36,924 nt of DNA, taken from IMG/VR virus record IMGVR_UViG_3300025120_000200, positions 1 to 36,924 of that record. One strand, written 5' to 3'. A program made the translations under genes and the position numbers. Below are positions 6,871 to 29,289 of this stretch, piece by piece. The notes beneath the pieces were generated by a model, which saw nothing but the letters and a program-made list of their open reading frames with translations, was not told the origin of the DNA and did no database searches. Source of the DNA: a virus. Numbering within the stretch: the stretch's first letter is position 1; each line of letters starts with the position of its first letter.

Positions 6871-9800
6871 CTTCCAATTGGGTTACCATAATCGAGTGCA
6901 GGATTATCTGCATCTAATGTTATGTATTCTTTTTGCACCTTTATATTTTGTACTATGTATTCAACGTTTCTTGAGCTATCATCTCCTCTAAGTGGAGTAC
7001 CAATATACTCTTCTGTGTATATTACCTCATCACCACTCAAGGCAGTATCAAAGCCTCTTATCCTTTGAGCTTGTGGAGCTGGTCTTACACCATATAGACA
7101 CACCCTATAGCTCGGATCAAGTTCTAGAGATCCACTCACATCAATAACGGGAATACCTAATCCACCTTCACTTCTTGATAGTCTTAAAAATTGCTCTGGT
7201 AATGGCACTCTTGCCGTTGAAGCTTCTGATCCAGCCACCTTTTCTATATCTACTACTACCGGTCTCATTGTCGAATCTCGCAAGCCATACACTCTTGTTC
7301 CAGCTATAGATTCATTATCTTCTGGTCTTAATCCTTGAACAGCAAATGCTATTTTTGCAGTTGGACTTGCTAATTCATTAATTTCTGACTGTGTTGGATA
7401 TTCTGTTTTATCGTAGCTAGGTAGTCTTAGCACACCTCCTAAGTTTGGAGTTTTGTGTATAACAGCTTCGTCAGCTTTCATATCTAGATAATAGTTGTCG
7501 ATCATATATAAACTGTCAGGAGATCCTAAATCTTCGTTTGTGTTATGGACTCCTATAGTTACAATAAATCTACTCTCTTGTTGCCAATCTTGGGTTTGTT
7601 CTTCCATGTTAGGTTTGAAGAATTCACCAAAAAGATCGGAGTTCCATGCGTCTATGTAGGTGGTGTAATCCAATTCGGAACCTGGAACAGCCCAATGTTT
7701 GTATTTTTGCTTGGTAAATTCTGGAACAGATCCACTGTTATATACGGCTAGTTTATCTTCATCTCTCAATGTGTACCATGTTATGGGAAACTTTGGAGCA
7801 ACGGGACTAGGTCCTATGAGGCCTTTGTCTAGGATTTTGTCATGCAGTTGTGTGTATCTAAATCCTTTATGTATGTCTCCGTCCGCATCATTTGGTACTG
7901 CATACAATGGAGACGCTATTCCGTTTGTTGGCGACATGCCATTGAAAAGGCCACCTGGAGGGGTTGTCATTAGGTTTGCACTAGTCTTCACTTTTGGTGC
8001 TACCGGCAGGACTGTTTGTGAGCTTGGTAGGAATGGGAATAAACCTGGAACGTATTGTTCAGTGTCTTTTGTTGTGTCAGATTGTGAGGGTTTATAACTC
8101 TCAACAAGTATGTTAATCTTTGGTTCTTTGTTTAACCCCTCTGTCATAGCAAACGTAAGATCTAGCGCCATAGTTTCTGTATCAGCCAGCCCTCTAACGT
8201 CTGCAATTGGACCTTTTACTAACCCTTGTACTCTATTGTTTTTAGCAAACATATTCTCGACTTCTGATTCTACCTGAGTTCGTTTGGTGCTGTTGTAGGG
8301 TATGAGGGCTAAGTTAAATCCAGATGCAAATGCTTTGGATAGAGGCGATCTTGAAAATCGACTTGGAGAGGTTTCAGGCCATATAGCTTGTTTTCCTTCT
8401 GAATCAATTGATCGGTAGTTGTCTTCTATTACTTTGTATATCTGTTTTGATTCTTTAGGTTCACTAGAAAAGTCGTCAGGTTGTGCGCGTTGATATGTTC
8501 CTTGCCAGCTAGGATAAGAGTATACACCTCCAGATAGTTGATCGACAGGCAATCCATATCGTGTCTGCTGTTGAACATAACCTAAACCACCTTTTGTTTC
8601 GATTGTGAAACTGATTCGTATTTTTGTAGTTCTTGGGTTGAGGAAAGGTATAACGATCTTATTGAATTCTGCGTATTGACCATAAGCATATCTGTCTGCT
8701 TTATTTTTTTGCAGTTCATCCATTACAAATAGATGCTGATCACGTCTGTCTCCTCGACTCTCTTTCCAACTAAAGCTTATATCACTATCATCTAGTGTGT
8801 CGGTATATTTTTGGTCGTAGTAGTTTGCTAATCTTTTATTCCATGGATCAAATGTTCGTTGCAATTTAACTCGCTCGTTACCTGACCTATCGAGACTTAG
8901 TAACTTTGTCTCGTTGTTGTATTCTTGAATATCAACATACAGCGTTTCTTCCACTGAACCGCCTCCCATTAGAAAAAAGTTCTCAAAACTCACTCTAGGT
9001 TCTTGACTGTTGTAGTTGTTTATATCCGAAACTTGATCGGGTGTTATAATTGGAGCAGCTGGTATGTAATTATGTATAGCCATTCCTAAGTAAAAGGAAA
9101 CCACAGCTCGTACACCATTAATACCATATACAGATCCGTTAATATGGTTATGTATTTCAGTTACGTCAACATCTTGATAAGCTGACACTGTTCTAGAGCC
9201 TCCGTTGTATATGTAATCGTGGTTTGTTTTTGTAAAATACGATTGAAGGCTTTTTAACGGACTGTTTTGTAGAGGACCGCGTTTAAGTTGATATGGTCTT
9301 GGGTTCAACATCTCGTGAGTCCATCTAAAATCAGGATTCATTGGATCGATAGCAATACGCTTATCACGCATACCATCGGTTGTTGGATCTATTCTTCTTG
9401 AATGTAAATCACCACCTACTGTTAGCCAGTTGTTTGTACTAAGCTCTCCGTCAACAGTACCGTTAGGGTTCTGTATGAGATTGTTGTAGAAGAAACTATC
9501 AACATCTGAGTTGAACACCTCTAACGTGGCACTTCCTCCGTCCGTCGTACCTATATCATTAGACACTACAACTCCATACGTTCCAGCGTATTGAGCGCAC
9601 ATGTTAGTAATAGTTAGTGTATTGCCTTTTACAGTTCGAGATGCTCCCAACTCTTGTATGGTGTCGTCAGACACAATGCTTTCGCCATCAACTGTCCATC
9701 TATATGTCAATCCTGTCTTAGGTGGGATTATCTCTAATAGCCCATTCTCAACATTATACACATCAGGTTGCTCTGCTTGTATCCTCAACACAAGAGTAGT

Positions 9801-10196
9801 TTTTGTGTGTACTTTTATGGTACCATCAGGAAATTGAAACATAAACTTACCCTTGTCTGCATCATTTGCTGCAGAGTAAGGTAATATTTGTGGAGTAGAC
9901 GCTTTGGATAATGGTGCTGTTATTATTGGCGGTTTGTTTGCTAATACTGGAAGTAGATCATATTCGGTATCATTTTCGTTTAGCTCAGTATTCAGAGTAG
10001 GGGTTGTTAAAGGATCTGAGTTTCTAGTTTCTCTATTAGATGCAGCAACTATCACTTCGGAGTTTGGTTCATGCTGCTTACCAGTCATTAATACCCCAGA
10101 TGGCATCTTATGAAAGAAGCCAGTGTAAGGTCGGTCAGTTAGTGTAACGTACTCACCGTCCTTCGCATAGAATATGTTTTCTTGATTGTATTCCAT
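6867..10196 (-). CDS. Ig-domain baseplate/tail structural protein, 1,109 aa
   Basis: This is the larger of two adjacent paralogues. An Ig-like domain lies at about residues 105-230: the TYRWTVDGE tryptophan strand, then LTITNMCAQYAGTYGVVVSN, the usual end of an I-set domain although the second core cysteine is replaced. It is followed by NLIQNPNGTVDGELSTNNW, matching the smaller paralogue. The remaining 850 residues are beta-rich with many Tyr, Asn and Pro and no enzyme motif I recognise. The gene comes after gp6 and the 373-aa protein in the wedge operon and overlaps the next gene by 4 nt. A role in the baseplate periphery or proximal fibres is inferred from position and domain type. There is no signal peptide, which fits an assembled virion protein rather than a secreted one. 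Confidence 0.75.
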   Translation of the reverse strand: MEYNQENIFYAKDGEYVTLTDRPYTGFFHKMPSGVLMTGKQHEPNSEVIVAASNRETRNSDPLTTPTLNTELNENDTEYDLLPVLANKPPIITAPLSKASTPQILPYSAANDADKGKFMFQFPDGTIKVHTKTTLVLRIQAEQPDVYNVENGLLEIIPPKTGLTYRWTVDGESIVSDDTIQELGASRTVKGNTLTITNMCAQYAGTYGVVVSNDIGTTDGGSATLEVFNSDVDSFFYNNLIQNPNGTVDGELSTNNWLTVGGDLHSRRIDPTTDGMRDKRIAIDPMNPDFRWTHEMLNPRPYQLKRGPLQNSPLKSLQSYFTKTNHDYIYNGGSRTVSAYQDVDVTEIHNHINGSVYGINGVRAVVSFYLGMAIHNYIPAAPIITPDQVSDINNYNSQEPRVSFENFFLMGGGSVEETLYVDIQEYNNETKLLSLDRSGNERVKLQRTFDPWNKRLANYYDQKYTDTLDDSDISFSWKESRGDRRDQHLFVMDELQKNKADRYAYGQYAEFNKIVIPFLNPRTTKIRISFTIETKGGLGYVQQQTRYGLPVDQLSGGVYSYPSWQGTYQRAQPDDFSSEPKESKQIYKVIEDNYRSIDSEGKQAIWPETSPSRFSRSPLSKAFASGFNLALIPYNSTKRTQVESEVENMFAKNNRVQGLVKGPIADVRGLADTETMALDLTFAMTEGLNKEPKINILVESYKPSQSDTTKDTEQYVPGLFPFLPSSQTVLPVAPKVKTSANLMTTPPGGLFNGMSPTNGIASPLYAVPNDADGDIHKGFRYTQLHDKILDKGLIGPSPVAPKFPITWYTLRDEDKLAVYNSGSVPEFTKQKYKHWAVPGSELDYTTYIDAWNSDLFGEFFKPNMEEQTQDWQQESRFIVTIGVHNTNEDLGSPDSLYMIDNYYLDMKADEAVIHKTPNLGGVLRLPSYDKTEYPTQSEINELASPTAKIAFAVQGLRPEDNESIAGTRVYGLRDSTMRPVVVDIEKVAGSEASTARVPLPEQFLRLSRSEGGLGIPVIDVSGSLELDPSYRVCLYGVRPAPQAQRIRGFDTALSGDEVIYTEEYIGTPLRGDDSSRNVEYIVQNIKVQKEYITLDADNPALDYGNPIGR

Positions 10197-10206
10197 GCTT
10201 TGTGTT

Positions 10207-11328
10207 TTAATTTCGTTCTACCTTAAATATGAAATTGTGGTCTCGTATCTCGTAGCTTACACCATCATCTTCGGGTACTTTAATTAGAAGTCTGTAGTAT
10301 CTCTCAGGTTGAAAGCTATCTAAGTGTAATCTAAAGAACGAGCCTTTGTTGTTTGAGGCAAGGTATGTGTATTCTGAGAATGGTATTACTGATTCATCAG
10401 ATCCTGCATAATACACAGCGTATTGTGATCCAGTTGGTAGTCTGTATGAGTCCAGAAATAGGGAAGCTGTTTGGTATGCTAACGCTGGATATCTGTATCG
10501 TGGTGCAAAGACAAACTTGGGTCTAGAAGTCTCCTTGTAAGATTCTCGTAGGTTTGTACAAACTAAATTATAATCCTCATCTGTGTCTAAAACGTCTAAT
10601 GATCCAGTATTAGTTTGATAGTTAGATTCGTCATACCTCGCTTCGAGTACTGGTGAATATATTGTATGAGTTTCCTTACTGTAGAAGCTTAGGTTATTAA
10701 ACTTGGCTAGCGACCCTTCGTCGGCGTCGGTCTTCTTTATAATGAATCCGTTGAAATCAACAGAACCGCTTTGCACTTTACGTATGATGTCAGTAACATC
10801 CATATCGACGTCAGTGGATTGGTAGCTGTAAGATTCAGAAGCTTCGCATGACGTGTACCAAGTTGCACCTCCTGGATTAATTGTAAATGATCCGGTTGAG
10901 TTAAGGGCGTAGGATCCCGTTTTCCATGAAGTTTCTGGACTAGTTAATCCATCTCTATAATACCAACTACAACCCTCTGTTGATGCTGGTGTCGTTCCTT
11001 TTTTGCCTATACCCATATTCCAAGATTGGGACACAGGAAAGGCTTGTAGTGTATAAGCCAGAGGAATTTCGGAGGCATCTGTAGCGTATAGTCTCAAGCC
11101 AAAGTTGAATAGATTTGGATCATACCCTAAATCCACAATACTCTTTGATACATTAGTGTAATCAAAATCGATCATGATTCTTGAGTTGAAGCTAGAAGTC
11201 TCTGCTGCGCCAGTCGATCCAGTAGCTGCTGTCTTTGTTATCTCCAATATTTGATCCATTCCAGTATTTGTAGCTGGAGAGCTCTCATATATTGTTGTGT
11301 CTTTCTTTGGGTAGAATCTTAAAATCAT
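10207..11328 (-). CDS. Putative beta-sandwich structural protein (DNRLRE-like start)
   Basis: This 373-residue protein lies 1 nt after the gp6 gene and 10 nt before the large Ig protein. Its N-terminus, RFYPKKDTTIYESSP then TNTGMDQILEI, resembles the opening of DNRLRE-type beta-sandwich domains, which start with a D-T-x-[IV]-x-x-x-x-P-x-x-N-x-G pattern. VDMDVTDIIRKVQSG at about residues 170-185 fits the V-T-x-x-V-x-x-W-x-x-G element of that fold. The second half is another beta-rich domain ending in VSYEIRDHNFIFKVERN. Placement right after gp6 argues for a baseplate wedge accessory or adaptor protein. The domain assignment is by eye and moderate; the structural role from context is stronger. 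Confidence 0.65.
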   Translation of the reverse strand: MILRFYPKKDTTIYESSPATNTGMDQILEITKTAATGSTGAAETSSFNSRIMIDFDYTNVSKSIVDLGYDPNLFNFGLRLYATDASEIPLAYTLQAFPVSQSWNMGIGKKGTTPASTEGCSWYYRDGLTSPETSWKTGSYALNSTGSFTINPGGATWYTSCEASESYSYQSTDVDMDVTDIIRKVQSGSVDFNGFIIKKTDADEGSLAKFNNLSFYSKETHTIYSPVLEARYDESNYQTNTGSLDVLDTDEDYNLVCTNLRESYKETSRPKFVFAPRYRYPALAYQTASLFLDSYRLPTGSQYAVYYAGSDESVIPFSEYTYLASNNKGSFFRLHLDSFQPERYYRLLIKVPEDDGVSYEIRDHNFIFKVERN

Positions 11329-11329
11329 A

Positions 11330-13270
11330 TCAATAGTTTACTACTCGTCCTTTTATATCTTTAGATGGATATTTTACTTCAAAAATCATTGGATCTAAGC
11401 TTGGGTATAATATTCCGTTTTTTGTTGCCTCTTTTATGCCATATGTAATGTTACTGTATCCTGCACTCGAATCGTTGAGGTTGTTTATTGTAACGCTTGT
11501 CACAGTTTGTACGCCTGGCTGCTGAAGAAGTAAATTGTAAATATCACTATACTGTATAGGTTGACTTATCTGCCATTTATCTATAGCAAAGAAGTCTTCT
11601 ACAGCATTAACACATGCAAGTAGTACTTCGTTTGCATTACGATCTCGCAGAGGTATAATGTCAAAACTCACTTCAATGTTCACAATAAATGCATCACGTA
11701 AATTGATACTATCTGTCAGCATTCTATATTGAGATATGTAAGTTTTGAGATTTTCTTTTACTGCTTGATTTGTCGTTGTTATATTTTTGTTAGCATCATA
11801 TCCTAAAAGGTACATGTTCATAGCTAGTGGATTTGATACTGTGTCATTTACATCACTAGTCAATAGATTGTTTTGCTCATCTGGTGTAATGAAAACCTTG
11901 ACTACACTTCCAAACTTAGGTGGCATTGCCAATGCTCTAATCATATAATCGTCTCTAGTTACTGCTCTGTTTTGTGAGGCAAGTTGTTTGAGTGCATTCT
12001 GTCTAACCTCTTCTAAAGTTTCTTGCGATCTTCCACCGATGGCGGGTTTTGGGTTGTTACAAGCTATTGAGTTAAGTACTGTTGAATTTAATATTCCGGT
12101 ATCTGGAAAACCTTTAGTTGTTGTATCAACCGCTGTTAAGTTTGTTATTTGATCACTTCCTACATTTGTTCTTGTACCACCCCCTACTAAATAGGTTACA
12201 GTTAGTGTTGTGTTTGATGGTGCTATTCCATAGGCTTTTGTTATACCTGGTGAGTTAGGATCAATAGATTGATCTATGTCAATTTTACCGGTTGGTAAAT
12301 TTAATCCAATGTTTTCTGGTGTTGGTAGTAAGTCTTCATCAGCCGATGTACTTATTCCACTACCAAATTGTATCTCAATACCATCGTCAAGTATGCGTGT
12401 GACAAAACGTCTTGGTGTCTTTTTGAGTTTTAGTAGGTATGGAATCTCGTCGCTGTATACTGCAGCGTCTGGATCATTTAAGGCTGTGTTTGTTATTTGC
12501 TCAAACACTGTATCTTGTGCTAAGTAGGGAACTTCAGTCCAAATGTTTCCGTCTGAATCTACTATGGAATCGATTCCAATATAATTAGGTGTGTTTACAT
12601 CGTTGAAAGGAATCTTAAACTTGTAAAACTTCTGAACACCTACTACATCTTCTTCTTGTGTTAGTAGTGTAGCAGAAACTGCTTTAGCAGATTTTTTAGC
12701 TAAATAGTATTCAGGATTTCCTGTTGTATCAATACTGTATACAGTGTACTCTATGGGGTCGTCTGCTGTGTTTATTGAGAAGTCAACAGCTTCTTGTATA
12801 TAAAAATTTACGACATCACTTTCGTTTGCACTGTACTCATTATCTCCAATTAATCGAGTTAAGGCAGCTTGTGCTTGCATTCCAGGCTGAATCTTTAAAG
12901 CGTATCGTGTATCAGGTTTTGCATTCTCACCAGTTCCAGTAGCAGGCATTAATTGGAAAATATCCAAATCCACACTTGACGGAACACTCACTTTAGGCTG
13001 ATATCCCATTGCAGCTGCGATTGCTAACACATTCCTACGCTCTGTGGCTTGTAATAATTGAGATTCTTTAAACTGTGAATCAATGTAATAGTTTAATGTA
13101 TCTCCTACATAAGCCATCAACTCTAGAAACATCATTCCAGGTGACGCTTCGTTAAAGTCGTTATAGGTGTTTGGGTAGTAGTTTTTAACAAACTCAACTA
13201 AACCCTGCTTGATAGTATCAAAGTCTCTTCCTAAGTATTCTATTTTTTTTGATGTATCAGTTTGAGGCAT
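11330..13270 (-). CDS. 6: Baseplate wedge protein gp6 (baseplate J-like)
   Basis: This is the T4 gp6-type baseplate wedge subunit; in T4 gp6 dimers form the continuous inner ring of the baseplate. The length of 646 residues matches T4 gp6 (about 660). The N-terminus carries the family signature: YLGRDFDTIKQGLVEF, then YNDFNEASPGMMFLELMAYVGD, split here as YNDFNEASPGMM and FLELMAYVGDTLNYYID. ERRNVLAIAAAMGYQP follows. The middle holds a baseplate-J-like core with GRSQETLEEVRQNALKQLAS and RAVTRDDYMIRALAMP, the typical elements around the J-domain helix. The C-terminal part has the IQYSDIYNLLLQQPGV element seen in baseplate J proteins. It sits 1 nt after gp25, the same functional pairing as in other contractile phages. 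Confidence 0.93.
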   Translation of the reverse strand: MPQTDTSKKIEYLGRDFDTIKQGLVEFVKNYYPNTYNDFNEASPGMMFLELMAYVGDTLNYYIDSQFKESQLLQATERRNVLAIAAAMGYQPKVSVPSSVDLDIFQLMPATGTGENAKPDTRYALKIQPGMQAQAALTRLIGDNEYSANESDVVNFYIQEAVDFSINTADDPIEYTVYSIDTTGNPEYYLAKKSAKAVSATLLTQEEDVVGVQKFYKFKIPFNDVNTPNYIGIDSIVDSDGNIWTEVPYLAQDTVFEQITNTALNDPDAAVYSDEIPYLLKLKKTPRRFVTRILDDGIEIQFGSGISTSADEDLLPTPENIGLNLPTGKIDIDQSIDPNSPGITKAYGIAPSNTTLTVTYLVGGGTRTNVGSDQITNLTAVDTTTKGFPDTGILNSTVLNSIACNNPKPAIGGRSQETLEEVRQNALKQLASQNRAVTRDDYMIRALAMPPKFGSVVKVFITPDEQNNLLTSDVNDTVSNPLAMNMYLLGYDANKNITTTNQAVKENLKTYISQYRMLTDSINLRDAFIVNIEVSFDIIPLRDRNANEVLLACVNAVEDFFAIDKWQISQPIQYSDIYNLLLQQPGVQTVTSVTINNLNDSSAGYSNITYGIKEATKNGILYPSLDPMIFEVKYPSKDIKGRVVNY

Positions 13271-13271
13271 A

Positions 13272-13715
13272 TTAATAAGTTGTTTGTTCTGGGTTGTCTG
13301 CGTTTACTGTAACATCTATTTGTCTTGTATCAAATTCGTTTCCAATTAAATTTATGCTTAATTGAATTCCTACTTGGTTTGGATTGGTATCCGAACTGCC
13401 TATTATGAGTTTTGAGATATTAATATAAGGTAGCTGGTGTTTAAAGCTCTCTCTAATCTGTTCCTCCATAACTTCTACAAAATCATCGGTAGCGTTATCG
13501 AATAGTACACCTCTAAGGTTGCATCCAAAAGTAGGCCGCATAGGTCTTTCGCCATGATTTGTTAGAAGTAAGTTTTTGGCGTTAGCTACTGCTGCGTCTA
13601 GGCTGGTGTATGTTGAGGTAAACGTAGAACCAGCGTATGAGCCAATAGGAATAGCTAATCCTATTGCTACATCGGTTTCAAAATCTAATGCTGGTTTGTT
13701 TATCTCAATCGCCAT
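13272..13715 (-). CDS. 25: Baseplate wedge protein gp25 (GPW/gp25 family)
   Basis: This is the small wedge protein that joins the sheath initiator region to gp6 in contractile tails. It has 147 residues, close to T4 gp25 (132). Family hallmarks are AVANAKNLLLTNHGERPMRP, followed by TFGCNLRGVLFDNA and an EEQIRESFKHQLPYI helix; the (R/E)R-x-x-(R/M)P-x-F-G-x-x-L core of GPW/gp25 proteins is intact. The start codon overlaps the stop of the upstream gene by 1 nt (TAATG type), and the stop is 1 nt before gp6. The family was originally called lysozyme-like, but enzymatic activity is not expected. Confidence 0.93.
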   Translation of the reverse strand: MAIEINKPALDFETDVAIGLAIPIGSYAGSTFTSTYTSLDAAVANAKNLLLTNHGERPMRPTFGCNLRGVLFDNATDDFVEVMEEQIRESFKHQLPYINISKLIIGSSDTNPNQVGIQLSINLIGNEFDTRQIDVTVNADNPEQTTY

Positions 13716-14137
13716 TATCTATTGTATTTTTTATCGTGTATTGCTTCTGCTGACTTCATAATTGATGAGTAGTCTTTAACAAAAGCGTCTGTTCCAGATG
13801 GAGGCATAGCTGTCTGTTGGCTAGCCATATGTCCAAATCCTTGTGCTTGATCAGCTGTGAATTGTGGTGCCATATCTGGATATGCACCGTCATCACCAAG
13901 TGGAGCTGCTTGACCACTTCTCATGGCATTTGCGGTTTCCATTAATATTCCATCCAAACTAGCATTTCCAGTCTTATGAATTGGTTGCTGAGTTACTGGA
14001 GCATGTGTGGTACTCTGTATGTCTTTAATGGGTTGTTTGTTTGTTTTTAGTGCTTCTCGTAACTCTTGTCGTATAACTGTTCGCACTTCTTTTCTGATAA
14101 TCTCCTTTAGGAGTTTTGCAAAATCTACTGCTTTCAT
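13715..14137 (-). CDS. Small helical protein at head of wedge operon
   Basis: This 140-residue protein is not recognised. The first 30 residues form one strongly charged amphipathic helix (FAKLLKEIIRKEVRTVIRQE), followed by a Gln/Pro/Thr-rich linker and a Met/Ala/Gly-rich segment with MAPQFTADQAQGFGHMASQQ. The C-terminus is lysine-rich. It is the first gene after a promoter-like motif and overlaps the gp25 gene by 1 nt, so it is probably co-expressed with the baseplate wedge. The terminal helix suggests a small adaptor or assembly factor, but nothing in the sequence proves this. Confidence 0.6.
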   Translation of the reverse strand: MKAVDFAKLLKEIIRKEVRTVIRQELREALKTNKQPIKDIQSTTHAPVTQQPIHKTGNASLDGILMETANAMRSGQAAPLGDDGAYPDMAPQFTADQAQGFGHMASQQTAMPPSGTDAFVKDYSSIMKSAEAIHDKKYNR

Positions 14138-14156
14138 AATAATAGTGTTGTTTTAT

Positions 14157-14164
14157 ATAAATAG
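14157..14164 (-). promoter_or_regulatory. Candidate late promoter motif, copy 2
   Basis: The coding strand reads CTATTTATATAAAA in the 35-nt gap between the coiled-coil gene and the wedge operon, ending 19 nt above the ATG at 14137. A canonical T4-type TATAAATA also occurs in the sense direction at 14174-14181, overlapping the stop codon of the upstream gene, so this gap could hold two elements. Confidence 0.55.
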
Positions 14165-14172
14165 GCATGTTT

Positions 14173-17100
14173 TTATTTATACCCTACAAATGGGAAGGGT
14201 GGTATTCCAGTTGCCGGGTTTGGAATACATAATCCGTTTATTGTCGCTAGTTGCAGTTCAAAGTTACGGGCTAGCTCTCTAACAGCTGCTGCTGTTCCTT
14301 CTATTCGACCATCAACTGTTAGTTTTTTAAAGGGGGTAGCAGTAAATACTTGAAAGGTTGCTCCGGCTGAGTTCTGCCATACAGCTCCGGTCCAAAACAA
14401 TGCTGATGCTATGTTATAAGCTATTGATTGAGGAATAAGGTCGTTCTTTAGTTTTTTATTTAGGATTGCATCTAACCTATCATTAAACTGTTTCTTCTCC
14501 TTATCTAGACGCTCTTTAATATCTTTTTTTATTTTAGAGGTTACCTTGTCGATCTGCACTTTTACAAAAGTTTCAAACTTTGCTACTAATTTCATAATCT
14601 CTTGAATTACTAAAAGAATCACAGAGCCTCGACCTTCGTTTAAGACTTTATACATCTTTTTCATAGACTCATATAATTTAGAATCGCCTAATCTTGCCTT
14701 AGCTTGGTCTTGTTGTTTCTTCCTAGCTTCACGTATATCATTCACAGTTGATGTTATAGCTCCTTGCTCCTCGATTCCAGTTCTTGGTTGTGTAGGTGTG
14801 TCGTCTAACTCAATAACTCCTATCATTTGTGCTAGCAGTTTTTGTACCTTTTTGAGGTATTTTTGTTCGATGTTGATGAGCATTGGCAGGAAGGAGGTTG
14901 ACTTGAGTACTTCAGACATCGCTTCTCCTTGCATAGAAGTTTTAATTTTCTGAAGTGTTGATATAAGCCCTTTGCTGTTAGATGGTGATGATGCAAAAGC
15001 TTCAATTATACCTACAACTCTTTGGTAAGACCTATCCGCTGCGTTTGTTAGAGATATTGATCCAACATCTAATTGAACTCTCTGTTGTAGGTTGCTGACA
15101 TCGAGCTTTAACTCATCAACAAATCCCGTAACACCTTCTTTAACTTTTCCAGCCGGACCAAGTGGTGTTTCGCTCATCCCTTTAATGATCAGTAATGCTA
15201 TACTTACAAATTGTTCGATCTGCTTCAGAGTATCAATCTCTTTTAGCATAATTTTTTTATCCTCTTCTTGCTGTTTGTAAATTGGACTACTTGAAGGTAC
15301 TCCTACAGTGAAAAAGTCGAATTTAGAATTGGCTATCTTTCTTAGAGGTTGTTCGTTTTTTGAAGAGGAAAAGTCGCCCTTACCTAAATTGACACCTACT
15401 GTAGCTGCGTTCTTTGATAATAAGACTCCTGCTGATACCTTCTTTTGTGTTTGTTCAATCTTCGTTTTATATTGATTGTAGGTCTCTTTTTTCTCTGCTA
15501 TTGCAGCTCTTCTAGTTTCAACATCCTTCAACTCTTCCGGAATGGGTAATGAGTTGATGATCTTTCTTTCAATGTCTTTTGCAATAACCTTTGCTTTAGC
15601 AATCTGCTTATTGGTAAAGTTTTCAACTTTCTTTAGCTGCTTATCCATAAAAGCCTTAATGCGTGCTAGTAGTATATCTAACTTTTTTAGTACCGAAACA
15701 AGTGTAGCTTTCGGTCGTGTAGATTTTGATCTTTCTTTCTTGATACGCTTGAAATTCTTTATAGGAGGAATACCTTCAAACTCCTGCATCGTGTTTATTA
15801 AGCTAAAGAACTGCTCCTCTAATGCATATATTTTACCTTCCATCTGATCATACTTGGTATCAGTTTTTTCTAGGACTTTTCGGATCTCAAGAAAGTCTAT
15901 AGTTAGCGGTCCTATTGCTTGGTTGATAGGAGTGTATAAGTCTTTTAAACCTTGCTGCGACAAGTAACTTCTCAAACCACTACTTGGCTTTTCGGGAGAT
16001 AAATCTATACTTGAGGCGTTGGTAAGATTGCTCTTGGTACGTTCTTGTATTGATTCAAATTGTGTTTTTAAATCATTAATTTGAGTTATTACATCGTCTT
16101 TTAATTTTGTGCCTGCTTGCAGCAACGCTGAACTGTCTTTTGCTAGAGTACCAACTAACTTAACGTTTTTTTGTGTCTTCTTTATTGTTTCCTCGTTCTC
16201 TTTTTTTAACCGCTTAACATCATCAACATACTTCTTGAATAGCTTTTTTCGTTCAGATTGCTTTTTGCCATTAGCAATTTCATTAACTTTTTGAGCAATA
16301 AGATCTTCTATTCTTTTCTTTTCACCGTCAAGCTTTATTTTTATATTCTCTTTTTGAATCTGGACTTTCTTTTCTAGTTTTCGTATTTGAGGTTCAATAT
16401 TGTATCTGATAAATTGTATGGCTTTGATTGCTTGCTCAGCTTGCTTGATCTTCGGTCCGTATTTTTGTTGAGCATTGTTCTTATCCATCATAAACGTAAT
16501 AAGAAGGTCTCCAAAATTCTCAGGCTCAAGCATTGTTACAACAATCTTAACTATCTTTTGTGCGGCTGCTTTTAGTCGCTGTTGAATATATCTTTGAGTT
16601 TGGTTTGGATTAGATGTGACACGATTAGCCTCTTCTATATATTTAGTGACTTTTAGAATGTTGTTGTATGTTTGACGAATCTCATTAGGTGAAGACACTT
16701 TAAACTCCAGGTTCGTTATTGTGTTTATTACTGAAGCTTCTTCTGGAAATGCATCTTCAAATTTTATATTTACATTAATGTCAGATTTAGCTATTTCTTT
16801 TATCTCTTCACCTACACTAATCAAGTCAGCTTTATAAGCTATGAACATCTCCTTAGCCATGTCTCCTAGCTGCTTTATGTTGGCAGGTAGCTCTTTAACT
16901 TTGTCTTTTAACTCTTTAATGAGTTTGATTTGTGCTTGTATTTTTTCTTTTTGAAACTTTGCTTTTTTTATAACACCCTCGAGTGCCTGCTTTTTAAGTT
17001 CTAGATTTTGTTTGTTCAATAACAATTCCTTACCGTTGAAGTAAGCAAATATCGCTTTATTGAATCTTAAATTGTTAGGTTCGTTGAAGGGTTTTTTGAA

Positions 17101-17317: not shown

Positions 17318-19207
17318 TTATAATTGAGAACCAAGCCAAGCTAACGCTTGGAAGTGGTTTTTGCCACTTGGTGTGTTTGTACCTCCCGATATTCCAGCTT
17401 GTGATAATATTCCTTTTCCTCTACCATTAGATGGTCCCGTTATTACATTGTTTGCAGGTAGACCATAATTGCTTACTGCCTGGGCAACTGCTTGAGCTGT
17501 TCCACCGCCAGCACCGCTTCCATTCCAAGGTTCAACAATATATAATTGACTTCTCGAGAATCCATAATTTTTCATCGCTGAAGCCATTTGTTTAGCATAC
17601 TTAGCACCTGCACTAAATAATACAACTGGGCCTCCTCCGTTTGCTTTAACAGCTGCTGATGCACCATTAAAATTGTCTTTTGTAAATGCTGATACAGCAC
17701 CTTTAAATCCTTCTTTGAAGAAATTTATCTGACCAGCATGTGATACATCTGTAGTGAGTCCTGTGATTAGAATAGCCTTTTCACCTCCACCTGATGATGA
17801 AGCACCACCTCCAGATGTTCCTGATGCTCCTTGAAGACCTGAGTTACCACCTCCAGTTGGGATTTGGTTTAATCCAAGATCAGCATACCACAAGTTAGAC
17901 TCCTTATTTGCTTTTACAGCATAAGGTCCATTTGCAGCCTTACTAGGAATGTACTCAAAGTGCCACTCCTCGTTACTTACCGTTCTGACAAAGCCAAACT
18001 TGTGTGCGTTAAATGCAACCCACTTATACACAGCGTCATTTAATACTCTACTAAAGAACTTACGACTTCCGGTATTGAAGTCTAATGCAACACCATTACC
18101 GTGTTTTGATACTCCTGGAGGAGCAGTTGGCGCTTTAAACTGACTCGATCCTGCGTAAAATATAAATGCTTCATCTCCTGACTTTGATCCAAATTTACCA
18201 CTTACCGTCTTAGAGGCTGGATAGCTAGACTTCCATCTCCCTTTATCTCTCCTTAAAGACTCCTGTGTTGTAAACTTACCAGTCTTACCACTTGCTGATG
18301 TCCATCTCGCTGAGTTACCAGTTGCTGGTCTGAAGGCAGAATTTACGCTGAGTGTTATGCCGTCTCGTTTTGCTGCTGCTTTCATTTTAGTATATGCTGT
18401 GGCTGCATCCTTAGTACAACACTGACTACTAACTCTGTAAAGAGTGGTAAACTTGTTACCGGCATTATCTGATACTGGGGTTGTTAACTGTACTGGATCT
18501 AGATCACCCGCTACTGGATCTTTTGCTTTAGCAACTTGATCAGTTGTTAGTCTTATAGAGGAAGCAGGGATTGCTGTTTGTTGAAATTTATTGACGAGTT
18601 TTACTATTCCACTTTTTGTTTTACCTTTTTCTTTTACTGTTGAAAATCCTACAAAATATAATGCATAATCTTCATACAAAGTCATACCATAAAGCAGCGC
18701 GTTAGATGACAACCACTTCTTTACAGCAACATCAAACTCAGAAACCATTAATATTCGTGCGTGTCGTCTTGGGTCTAGATCCGTTGTATTAGGTACTGAG
18801 TATACAGAAGACTCTCCTCCAGCTGAACGGAATGGTTCGGCTAATGGTGGGTCAAAAGCACCTTTTGCTTTGGTAGCGCAATCATTTAAGTATGCTTCTA
18901 CTTTATTAAAATCTACTTGAGCTGCTCCAGTAGCTACGTCTGCAATTGAGGTAGCTGGATCTAATGCATTTGATAGTGTGGGGTCAAAGGAGTCAATTCC
19001 GTCTGGAGCTTCCACCCTATACTCAGGTCGTAATTTTGTTCTAAGATCATCTACAACTTCAAACTTAGATAGGTAGCTAGGTTTTAATGAGAGTGTTTGG
19101 GATGTTGTTTCTTGAAGCTTTGCATTCATCGCTTCAAAGTATTGTTGAGCTTCAGTCAATATTACTGAGTCTCCAAATTGTGATAGTTTTCCTTCTAATG
19201 ATGCCAT
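17318..19207 (-). CDS. Tail-associated lysin: M15 (VanY-type) peptidase with C-terminal hydrolase-like domain
   Basis: This 629-residue protein has three parts. Residues 1-250 are a phage-specific structural region. Residues about 255-425 match M15B D,D-peptidases: NSAFRPATG (291-297 region), the zinc motif SKHGNGVALD with His369 and Asp376, and EEWHFEY with His416 as third ligand. It would cut peptide crossbridges of the host peptidoglycan during infection. After a Gly/Ser linker (about 451-475) comes a second domain, KAILITGLTTDVSHAG, VVLFSAGAKYAKQMA, LYIVEPWNG, whose strand-turn-helix spacing resembles an alpha/beta-hydrolase or SGNH-like fold with Ser at the VLFSAGA turn; that part is tentative. 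There is no signal peptide, and the neighbours are hub and spike genes, so delivery on the baseplate is more likely than a role in lysis. Confidence 0.82.
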   Translation of the reverse strand: MASLEGKLSQFGDSVILTEAQQYFEAMNAKLQETTSQTLSLKPSYLSKFEVVDDLRTKLRPEYRVEAPDGIDSFDPTLSNALDPATSIADVATGAAQVDFNKVEAYLNDCATKAKGAFDPPLAEPFRSAGGESSVYSVPNTTDLDPRRHARILMVSEFDVAVKKWLSSNALLYGMTLYEDYALYFVGFSTVKEKGKTKSGIVKLVNKFQQTAIPASSIRLTTDQVAKAKDPVAGDLDPVQLTTPVSDNAGNKFTTLYRVSSQCCTKDAATAYTKMKAAAKRDGITLSVNSAFRPATGNSARWTSASGKTGKFTTQESLRRDKGRWKSSYPASKTVSGKFGSKSGDEAFIFYAGSSQFKAPTAPPGVSKHGNGVALDFNTGSRKFFSRVLNDAVYKWVAFNAHKFGFVRTVSNEEWHFEYIPSKAANGPYAVKANKESNLWYADLGLNQIPTGGGNSGLQGASGTSGGGASSSGGGEKAILITGLTTDVSHAGQINFFKEGFKGAVSAFTKDNFNGASAAVKANGGGPVVLFSAGAKYAKQMASAMKNYGFSRSQLYIVEPWNGSGAGGGTAQAVAQAVSNYGLPANNVITGPSNGRGKGILSQAGISGGTNTPSGKNHFQALAWLGSQL

Positions 19208-27331: not shown

Positions 27332-27844
27332 TTAAACTTGAAAAATTGAGTCACTTAATCTTCCTAAACCATCTGGATGATCCATTCCATAACCGAATAC
27401 CCATTCATCTTTAATAGTGTATCCGCAAAAATTCAGATGAAGAGGATTAGTTTCTCTCTCAAGCAATGCAGCTTTGTAAACGCGTTTAGCTCCTCTATCG
27501 TAAGCGAGTTTTTCTAAGTATGCCATAGTGCTTCCAGAGTCGACAATGTCATCTATCAACCAAACATCCTTATCAGTAAGATCAATTTTCCAATCTTTGT
27601 ATAGATCAATCTCACCTCTAGCCTGACCTTTGTATGAAGCAACTCCTACGCAATCAACATAAGCATCGAATAGTAGGTTTTTAGCAACATCTTGAAAGAA
27701 TGTAATACCTCCTTGTAGGATGGGTGTTAGTACTGGATATATCTCATTTGGTGGATCAGCGTTCGGATAAAGGCTGTTCATCATATCCGCTAACTCTAAA
27801 ACTTTATCCTCTATTGCAAGAGGACTGAATAGTATTTTTTCCAT
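27332..27844 (-). CDS. Hypoxanthine-type purine phosphoribosyltransferase
   Basis: The 170-residue protein transfers phosphoribosyl groups from PRPP to a purine base, most likely hypoxanthine or guanine, for purine salvage in the cytoplasm. The PRPP-binding loop is intact at residues 94-107 (VWLIDDIVDSGSTM), with the paired acidic residues. An upstream PILQGGITFF segment matches the first PRT loop, and WVFGYGMDHPDGLGR near the C-terminus corresponds to the purine-specificity element (VGYGLDY in bacterial Hpt). Length is typical for bacterial Hpt (about 175-180). It would recycle bases from degraded host nucleic acid. It lies between a presumed virion-associated protein and the fibre gene, an unusual place for a metabolic gene. 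Confidence 0.82.
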   Translation of the reverse strand: MEKILFSPLAIEDKVLELADMMNSLYPNADPPNEIYPVLTPILQGGITFFQDVAKNLLFDAYVDCVGVASYKGQARGEIDLYKDWKIDLTDKDVWLIDDIVDSGSTMAYLEKLAYDRGAKRVYKAALLERETNPLHLNFCGYTIKDEWVFGYGMDHPDGLGRLSDSIFQV

Positions 27845-27867: not shown

Positions 27868-28254
27868 TTATACTTTCAACTTTTTTCCTGATGTTTTGAA
27901 GTTAAATTTACGCATGACTGTTTTGGATATCAAGTCAAGTTTTTTGGTTCTAGGATTGAATCTGAGTACGAATGGTACGTTGATATTAGATTCCATATCA
28001 GTGATTACAGCTTCTCCACTAGCTCCCAAACTCTTTATCTCTTGTCCGTGATCTTCATATGTTTTTGTGAATAAATCTTCAATCTCCTCGGGCTCTATTG
28101 ACTTAGTGTTACGTATATCGTTAACTCGATCCATAAAGTGTCTTGTAAACTCTATATCAATCCCAATAGCAGCAAACATCTTATCTAAGTACGCTTCGAC
28201 TTCATCTAACTCAGCCTGATTTACCGACTCTAATATTTGTTGTAATTTAATCAT
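27868..28254 (-). CDS. Small protein with capsid-targeting-like N-terminus
   Basis: The 128-residue protein begins MIKLQQILESVNQ, closely similar to the starts of the two genes just upstream. The rest reads FTRHFMDRVNDIRNTKSI, a helix bundle with EPEEIEDLFTKTYEDHG, then VPFVLRFNPRTKKLDLISKT and a basic end (VMRKFNFKTSGKKLKV). The arrangement faintly recalls small RelE/BrnT-like folds, but I cannot confirm that. The start overlaps the 57-aa gene by 8 nt. An internal head protein is one possible role, given the shared N-terminal tag. Confidence 0.6.
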   Translation of the reverse strand: MIKLQQILESVNQAELDEVEAYLDKMFAAIGIDIEFTRHFMDRVNDIRNTKSIEPEEIEDLFTKTYEDHGQEIKSLGASGEAVITDMESNINVPFVLRFNPRTKKLDLISKTVMRKFNFKTSGKKLKV

Positions 28255-28420
28255 CTTTAACTTGTATAATAATTTTATCGTCTACTCGCTTTATGGTAAA
28301 GTTAGAAGGTAATACGTTTGTAACATACTGTTCATAGAAAGCGTTACGATCAAAATCAAGCTTTTTAGGAACTTCAGCTTTAACATAGCCAGGCGGCATT
28401 ATATCTTTAAGCTTAATCAC
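28247..28420 (-). CDS. 57-aa GTG-start protein
   Basis: A GTG start at 28420 overlaps the stop of the upstream gene (AAGTGATTAAG), and the frame runs to a TAA at 28247. The product begins (M)IKLKDIMPPGYVKAEVPK and ends FTIKRVDDKIIIQVKDD, so it fills a stretch that would otherwise be an odd 160-nt gap. The MIKL start matches both neighbours, which supports translation. It overlaps the next gene by 8 nt. Function is unknown; the C-terminal part looks like one small beta hairpin domain. Confidence 0.65.
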   Translation of the reverse strand: MIKLKDIMPPGYVKAEVPKKLDFDRNAFYEQYVTNVLPSNFTIKRVDDKIIIQVKDD

Positions 28421-29289
28421 TTATCTGTAGTAGTCTCTATAATAACTCGTATCTTTGGCTCATAGCCTTGTGGTAGTTTGTTTACTAATCCCTTAAACGA
28501 AGAGTTACCAGCATCATGCCTAAACTCAAATTTCAAATTACTAAGATCCATCATCACTTGTGAAGATGTTGTAAAGCCAAAACTATTCTCTCGTCTATAT
28601 GGATTCATCCACTTATCACTATCGTGCTGCTTTGACAAAGCGTCTAATACCTGCTCTTGAGACGATATATCTGACAATGCGTCATAAGCTATCTGCTGTC
28701 TCGATAAAGAAGACTTTCTCTTCAGTCCTCCAGTATAGCCAGTATCTGGATATTCGACTCCATGATTGGTTCTCGTTACTACTTCATCCGAACCTACTCG
28801 CTTTATGATTGGAACATGTTGCGTTGTCATTTCAATAATATAGCTGTGCGTAGCATTTGACACAATTGTAAGTCCTTTTACACCTACATCGTCCTCATCA
28901 TCTCCTCTAAAATTAATCACCGATCTCATAGATTGTGACAATTTACTCTGCTGTAGAGCGGTTCTGATCTTTAATCCATCATAAGAAGGCTTACCATTTT
29001 TACCTTTTTTTGCCTTATCTTTAGCTAAATCACCCTCTTTTTCGTCAAATCCAACCATCAATGAAGCATTAACGACACCAATACCTTTCTCATTCATGCC
29101 TTCACTCCAATCAGTTAAAACATCTCTCATATACACCATCTCTACGCCATTGACAATTTCGTGGATTACTTCGAGATCTGGAGCATACATTCTATCACGA
29201 TTCTTTGCTAAAACCACATTACCATCAACACGGCAGCGTGCAATAACACATTCATTTAATTCTGCGAGAAGATTACGTAATTTTATCAT
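28417..29289 (-). CDS. Ntn-hydrolase, C45/C59-like (penicillin acylase / acyltransferase fold)
   Basis: The 290-residue protein resembles N-terminal-nucleophile hydrolases of the acyl-CoA:6-APA acyltransferase (C45) and choloylglycine hydrolase (C59) group. Cys13 (ELNECVIARC) would be the nucleophile; RVDGNVVLAKNRDRMY gives the dG-x-x-x-x-(R/K)N-x-D pattern about 15 residues later, and SEGMNEKGIGVVNASLMVG is the typical G-x-N-E-x-G-(I/L)-x-V strand. SNATHSYIIEM and VVTRTNHGVEYP are further family-like elements. Maturation would require removal of the first 12 residues (MIKLRNLLAELNE), which resemble a T4 capsid-targeting sequence. The substrate is not known; an amide in the host envelope or an acylated signal are options. 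It is the first gene after a promoter-like motif. Confidence 0.72.
   Translation of the reverse strand: MIKLRNLLAELNECVIARCRVDGNVVLAKNRDRMYAPDLEVIHEIVNGVEMVYMRDVLTDWSEGMNEKGIGVVNASLMVGFDEKEGDLAKDKAKKGKNGKPSYDGLKIRTALQQSKLSQSMRSVINFRGDDEDDVGVKGLTIVSNATHSYIIEMTTQHVPIIKRVGSDEVVTRTNHGVEYPDTGYTGGLKRKSSLSRQQIAYDALSDISSQEQVLDALSKQHDSDKWMNPYRRENSFGFTTSSQVMMDLSNLKFEFRHDAGNSSFKGLVNKLPQGYEPKIRVIIETTTDK

Follow-up and report, generated by a model that had tools for sequence, protein, structure and literature searches.

The window, a stretch of 36,924 nucleotides of viral DNA (IMG/VR record IMGVR_UViG_3300025120_000200), carries an intact ORF for a protein of 290 amino acids that starts with MIKLRNLLAELNECVIARC (also MIKLRNLLAELNECVIARCRVDGNVVLAKNRDR). 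A tag of 13 residues, MIKLRNLLAELNE, precedes a cysteine that is predicted to be the nucleophile of an Ntn hydrolase, and the predicted mature protein would be without residues 1-13. Downstream of this gene are two further ORFs with MIKL tags in overlapping order, and the 3' end of the first of these overlaps the second. The features are listed in Table 1.

Table 1. Coordinates of the Ntn-hydrolase gene, its N-terminal features and the tagged neighbours in the window. A slash marks the bond that would be cut.
Feature	Position	Strand	Basis or remark
Ntn-hydrolase ORF, putative zymogen, 290 aa	28417..29289	-	ORF call, AlphaFold2 model, fold search
Capsid-targeting-like tag MIKLRNLLAE, residues 1-10	29260..29289	-	Hydrophobic at 4, 7 and 8 and E10, as in the T4 CTS
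Second (L/I)-x-E site, LNE, residues 11-13, abutting Cys14	29251..29259	-	
Cys14, predicted N-terminal nucleophile (codon 29250-29248)	29248..29250	-	Invariant in 175/175; opposite known catalytic Cys
N30-R31-D32-R33, Asp element at Cys+18	29191..29202	-	Invariant in 39/39; aligned to N-x-D of cellular C45
57-aa ORF, MIKLKDIMPPG..., tagged, without clear (L/I)xE	28247..28420	-	GTG start overlaps the stop of the Ntn gene
128-aa tagged neighbour, MIKLQQILES..., tag end I-L-E/S	27868..28254	-	

In IMG/VR, 182 relatives of the protein were found, and an alignment query retrieved 428 related stretches in one scan. Family members are currently annotated as "hypothetical protein", and PHROGs holds no family for the window protein. 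Two isolated and cultivable Chryseobacterium phages, MA9V-1 and MA9V-2, carry family members; a search of viral contigs with an MA9V query and its own patterns found no relatives. A sister contig (G001) aligns with 58% of the window at 79% nucleotide identity. The family is a large phage family whose hosts are apparently Bacteroidota. The host of the window phage is probably also a Bacteroidota bacterium, since the MA9V phages have Chryseobacterium as their host and the window encodes a T9SS sorting domain. This type A domain (TIGR04183 7e-10, PF18962 4.6e-8) forms the C-terminus of an 818-aa phage protein (32340-34796, minus strand), for which the type IX system of Bacteroidota may provide a route to the host surface. 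The sole match in GTDB genome contigs, from Aminobacter (L102), was rejected as a cellular homologue because it is a chance match to KNRDRIY in an unrelated protein.

Fold and family of the encoded protein

The initial annotation had staked its assignment on the alpha-beta-beta-alpha Ntn fold, and this fold was found in the AlphaFold2 model built on the family alignment (pLDDT 85.3, pTM 0.87) as well as by Foldseek and VIA-align. The top Foldseek matches were the precursor and mature forms of isopenicillin-N acyltransferase (IAT), CV2077, bile-salt hydrolases (BSH) and penicillin V acylase (PVA), and VIA-align gave the model Z values of 20.6 for NAAA, 19.4 for acid ceramidase, 19.3 for IAT and about 17 for BSH. 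Residue 14 is the first aligned residue in most of the VIA-align rows, where it faces Cys126 of human NAAA, Cys143 of ASAH1, Cys103 of IAT, Cys2 of BSH and Cys1 of PVA. This cysteine is kept in every one of the 175 relatives whose N-termini were extracted, and it always stands behind a cleavage-type site or directly behind Met. Given the fold matches, the superposition and the alignment of the C45 profile, Cys14 is very probably the Ntn nucleophile. The initial annotation had picked the same residue and called it Cys13; its identity stands and its number does not, since the tag is 13 residues long.

Profile searches place the protein near the C45 enzymes. The window protein scored 19.7 bits (7e-4) against the Pfam AAT family PF03417, under the gathering score of 23.2 bits, which a fusion member (L011) clears with 23.8 bits. 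Against the NCBIfam C45 model NF040521 it scored 37.1 bits (2.2e-9), under the curated cut-off of 85 bits; this model is matched by 38 of the 41 aligned members, the best at 2.5e-15. Profile-profile comparison with cellular C45 enzymes (E 1.3e-5) aligned Cys14, N-x-D, GMNE, TNH and the S/R region, and the C45 motifs are all present (N-x-D at about Cys+18, GMN, TNH and S..R). The K-N-x-D and G-M-N-E-K-G elements that had been read from the sequence at the outset do occur in the protein, the first as K-N-R-D, and are invariant or nearly so among the relatives. A PDB search with the single window sequence gave no match, and a PDB profile search returned chance matches only, such as isocitrate dehydrogenase and flavodoxin. 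The family assignment is firm because relatives were added, as the window sequence alone is sub-threshold. Sequence comparison and model together support the gene product as a cysteine Ntn hydrolase of the NAAA/acid ceramidase/IAT/BSH fold, with a predicted activity as amide/acyl hydrolase or acyltransferase. With ceramides, N-acylethanolamines, penicillins and bile salts all among the substrates of its structural neighbours, the fold does not point to one substrate, and naming a host lipid, signal or peptide that is N-acylated would be guesswork.

The N-terminal tag and the site before Cys14

The capsid-targeting sequence (CTS) of T4 has 10 residues, of which positions 4 and 7 serve targeting and positions 8 and 10 serve processing, and Asp at position 10 blocks processing and not targeting (PMC9026906). 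The T4 protease gp21 cuts after L/I-X-E (PMC9026906). With about 10 residues, hydrophobic residues at 4 and 7, L/I at 8 and E at 10, the putative targeting sequence MIKLRNLLAE matches a T4 CTS in its geometry, and it marks a cluster of predicted cargo genes. On the sister contig (G001, locus L093) eight close genes at 8609-14438 encode different proteins, mostly of hypothetical function, with M(I)KLxxIL-x-E tags, and the Pfam matches among them are HAD-like DUF2608 and DUF5872. N-termini with strict T4 geometry were counted at 10 against 0.96 expected in G001, 8 against 1.0 in G120 and 4 against 1.0 in MA9V-2, which has the T4-like start MKNFFSFINEA; the enrichment is weak in G004 (4 against 2.2). 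The window was excluded as an informative row of this census because the Ntn start was missed, probably through the calling of an internal start. In the surroundings of the Ntn gene, 49 loci together gave 48 CTS-like starts on the same strand and 3 antisense, the antisense count being an imperfect control because phage genes are co-oriented.

The slot equivalent to the 57-aa ORF of the window holds a 332-aa ORF in G001 (157129-158127), suggesting a swap of cargo genes. The G001 gene at 10457-11215 encodes YHYTSYSRAIDIVKSGKL after its tag and recalls, by eye, ADP-ribosyltransferase-like proteins, for which Pfam gave no support.

The window tag has two candidate sites, LAE at residues 8-10, which is the usual tag end, and LNE, which abuts Cys14. 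The second had been pointed out in the initial annotation as an (L/I)-x-E site directly before the cysteine, and the relatives confirm it: after clustering at 85%, P1 is Glu in 62 of 62 propeptide-bearing members. Clustering at 75% gives Glu at P1 in 36 of 36, with Leu or Ile at P3 except for one Met and one Phe and with P2 free; under laxer clustering a few members have Val at P3. Positions P4-P6 are not conserved across the family propeptides. Against the background of these propeptides (Glu 7.3%, Leu plus Ile 22.7%), chance would place (L/I)-x-E directly before Cys in about 1.7% of cases. The observed Glu in 62 of 62, with Leu or Ile and rarely Val, Met or Phe at P3, excludes chance. Glu10, the tag end, is not conserved: L008 has Asp there and L009, L010 and L018 lack it, but the site next to Cys is always kept. 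This indicates that selection is on the bond that frees the cysteine. In L114 the tag end and the Cys-adjacent site coincide (MIKLIDLLKE/C). The motif alone is not sufficient, since it also occurs within the mature domain as I42-H43-E44.

The length of the propeptide varies from 4 residues (MINE/C, MLNE/C) through the 13 of the window to over 300, and in fusions whole domains of 94 to over 300 residues lie ahead of Cys (L011, L012, L021, L071). Where the Ntn domain is fused behind other domains, as in L011, L103-L108 and L071, the (L/I)xE/C junction is kept in a polyprotein-like arrangement. L011 also has a weak match to DUF5872, as does one of the tagged cargo proteins of G001.

Five members (85% clustering) have no propeptide and start exactly with Met-Cys. 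A requirement for a free N-terminal Cys would predict just such a start when the propeptide is lost, and in these members Met aminopeptidase would expose the cysteine. In a tree of 67 sequences the Met-Cys forms fall within the clade of members with a propeptide, a placement that requires two changes.

Possible routes to a free N-terminal cysteine

A prohead protease of the S77 family was found above the Pfam cut-off in 10 of 16 and 13 of 14 searched records, or 22 of 29 distinct records; the sister contig and the two complete MA9V genomes are among those that have it. The S77 gene was not found in the window, where the record is a 36.9-kb fragment, and we infer an S77 protease for the window phage from the sister contig. 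In MA9V-1 and MA9V-2 (L277, L278) the S77 match lies within a very large open frame of 1213-1349 aa, and the ORF concerned in MA9V-1 is annotated as prohead core protein serine protease (PMC10537231). The MA9V-1 paper presents SDS-PAGE only, and the words mass spectrometry are absent from both MA9V papers.

It is likely that the protein is packaged as a zymogen and that the prohead protease exposes its N-terminal nucleophile. The observations in support are the fold, the position of the nucleophile, the conserved site, the geometry of the tag, the tagged cluster and the presence of S77 in relatives. Residues 1-10 would act as a capsid-targeting sequence that carries the zymogen into the prohead core, like the T4 internal proteins and Alt. 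A gp21-type S77 prohead protease would then cut after Glu13 (L-N-E/C), and possibly also after Glu10 (L-A-E/L). Across the Ntn superfamily the enzymes are established to rely on a free alpha-amine at the nucleophile, and the cut at E13/C14 would make Cys14 N-terminal and create the catalytic centre. The active enzyme would ride in the head, enter the next host cell with the DNA and there hydrolyse some N-acyl or amide substrate. The building of the capsid would probably both pack the enzyme and switch it on before injection. We also lean towards a broader reading, in which capsid maturation is the activation switch and the prohead protease the convertase that creates the catalytic N-terminal Cys, the hydrolase having no activity in the cell that produces it and working only once it is in the virion and in the next host, and in which lineages have toggled between this route and exposure by Met aminopeptidase. 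The Met-Cys members occur in phages that also encode S77, so packaging would not be obligatory for the family and the enzyme could also be activated in the cytoplasm. Against packaging, several members have a propeptide of 4 residues (M-I/L-x-E), and the packaging of these members is unexplained because this is too short for a known CTS.

Self-cleavage, in which Cys14 of the folded precursor attacks the Glu13-Cys14 bond, is the main alternative. Activation would then not need the prohead protease, although head targeting may still be the role of the tag. The fold and profile relatives are autoproteolytic (NF040521 is named "autoproteolytic", and precursors of IAT, ASAH1 and NAAA are among the top matches), a hydrophobic P3 could fit the enzyme's own acyl pocket, and the 4-residue propeptides (MINE/C) resemble short self-removed propeptides with no room for a known targeting tag. 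Additionally, the self-processing Cys-Ntn enzyme PurF has Glu at P1 in all propeptide-bearing sequences sampled, so Glu at P1 alone proves nothing. However, the PurF junction is x-(D/E)-E/C with H, K, R, N or Q and never Leu or Ile at P3 in the sample, whereas the phage family has a free P2 and Leu/Ile at P3, in exact agreement with the specificity of gp21. In the sample of cellular C45 enzymes the junction is G/C, whereas the propeptide-bearing phage members are all Glu-Cys, which makes Glu at P1 a change peculiar to the phage family. The phage site, as read from the alignments, matches neither PurF nor cellular C45 and matches gp21. In addition to encoding S77, the phages have this motif in the tags of many other proteins, and the MA9V Ntn site (FINE/C or FLNE/C) resembles the tag ends of the same phages (FINE/A, FINE/S). 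Self-cleavage as the activating step is unlikely on this evidence. The family alignment, the census of tags, the S77 genes of relatives and the comparisons with PurF and C45 support the removable tag with a prohead-protease-type site that had been proposed from the sequence.

It is very improbable that the tag is a packaging tag cut at Glu10 only, with later maturation by host or phage proteases or an enzyme that works uncleaved. LAE at 8-10 is the usual tag end in the sister proteins, but Glu10 is not conserved and Glu13 is, the propeptide-free members begin exactly with Met-Cys, and the use of the nucleophile's alpha-amine also speaks against such a cut. An ordinary late cytoplasmic enzyme with a fortuitous or translational hydrophobic N-terminus, for which the tagless Met-Cys members in S77-bearing phages could be cited, deserves hardly any credence, as the same tag is found on unrelated neighbours far above expectation (including the eight G001 genes) and no propeptide-bearing member lacks the site next to Cys.

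Comparison with known systems

The phage family shares with C45/AAT (PF03417, NF040521) the fold, the Cys nucleophile with Asp at +18, and the GMNE, TNH and S-x-x-x-R elements. It differs in having Glu rather than Gly before Cys and in the window protein scoring under the NCBIfam cut-off; the phage propeptide is short and very variable, whereas C45 has a self-cleaved segment of roughly 90 residues, and the phage form was found here only in phages. NAAA and acid ceramidase gave the highest Z values, with the nucleophile superposed, but these enzymes are lysosomal and self-activated with a long alpha subunit and share 13-16% identity with the phage protein. PurF, likewise a Cys-Ntn enzyme, also has a short propeptide that ends in Glu, but it belongs to an unrelated subfamily and is self-cleaved, with an acidic P2 and a polar P3.

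T4 gp21 trims targeting tags and shell proteins. The phage Ntn protein resembles the T4 internal proteins and Alt in the ten-residue geometry of the tag, the predicted (L/I)xE cut, the S77 protease present in most relatives and the logic of an injected enzyme (PMC9026906). Alt and the internal proteins are not Ntn hydrolases, unlike the window protein, and the T4 cut removes a targeting tag, whereas the cut in the phage Ntn protein would also create the catalytic residue. For a C45-like Ntn hydrolase as capsid cargo, with activation apparently delegated to the capsid protease, the open-access literature searched on capsid targeting of phage CGH, penicillin acylase or Ntn enzymes gave no report of such an arrangement, and Ntn hydrolases go unmentioned in the polyvalent-protein paper. 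If the proposal is true, building the active site of a cargo enzyme by a gp21-type cut would tie the timing of the enzyme to head maturation, shield the producing cell from the action of the enzyme it makes, and offer a ready readout for the time and place of prohead protease action. The idea is directly testable because the family is abundant and is present in the cultivable MA9V-1 and MA9V-2.

Other genes of the window were noted as well. A VanY-type D-Ala-D-Ala carboxypeptidase domain (2.2e-16) lies in a 629-aa protein near baseplate-like genes (17318-19207, minus strand), and a hypoxanthine phosphoribosyltransferase-like gene (27332-27844, minus strand; TIGR01203 2.6e-27, below cut-off) is found directly downstream of the tagged genes.
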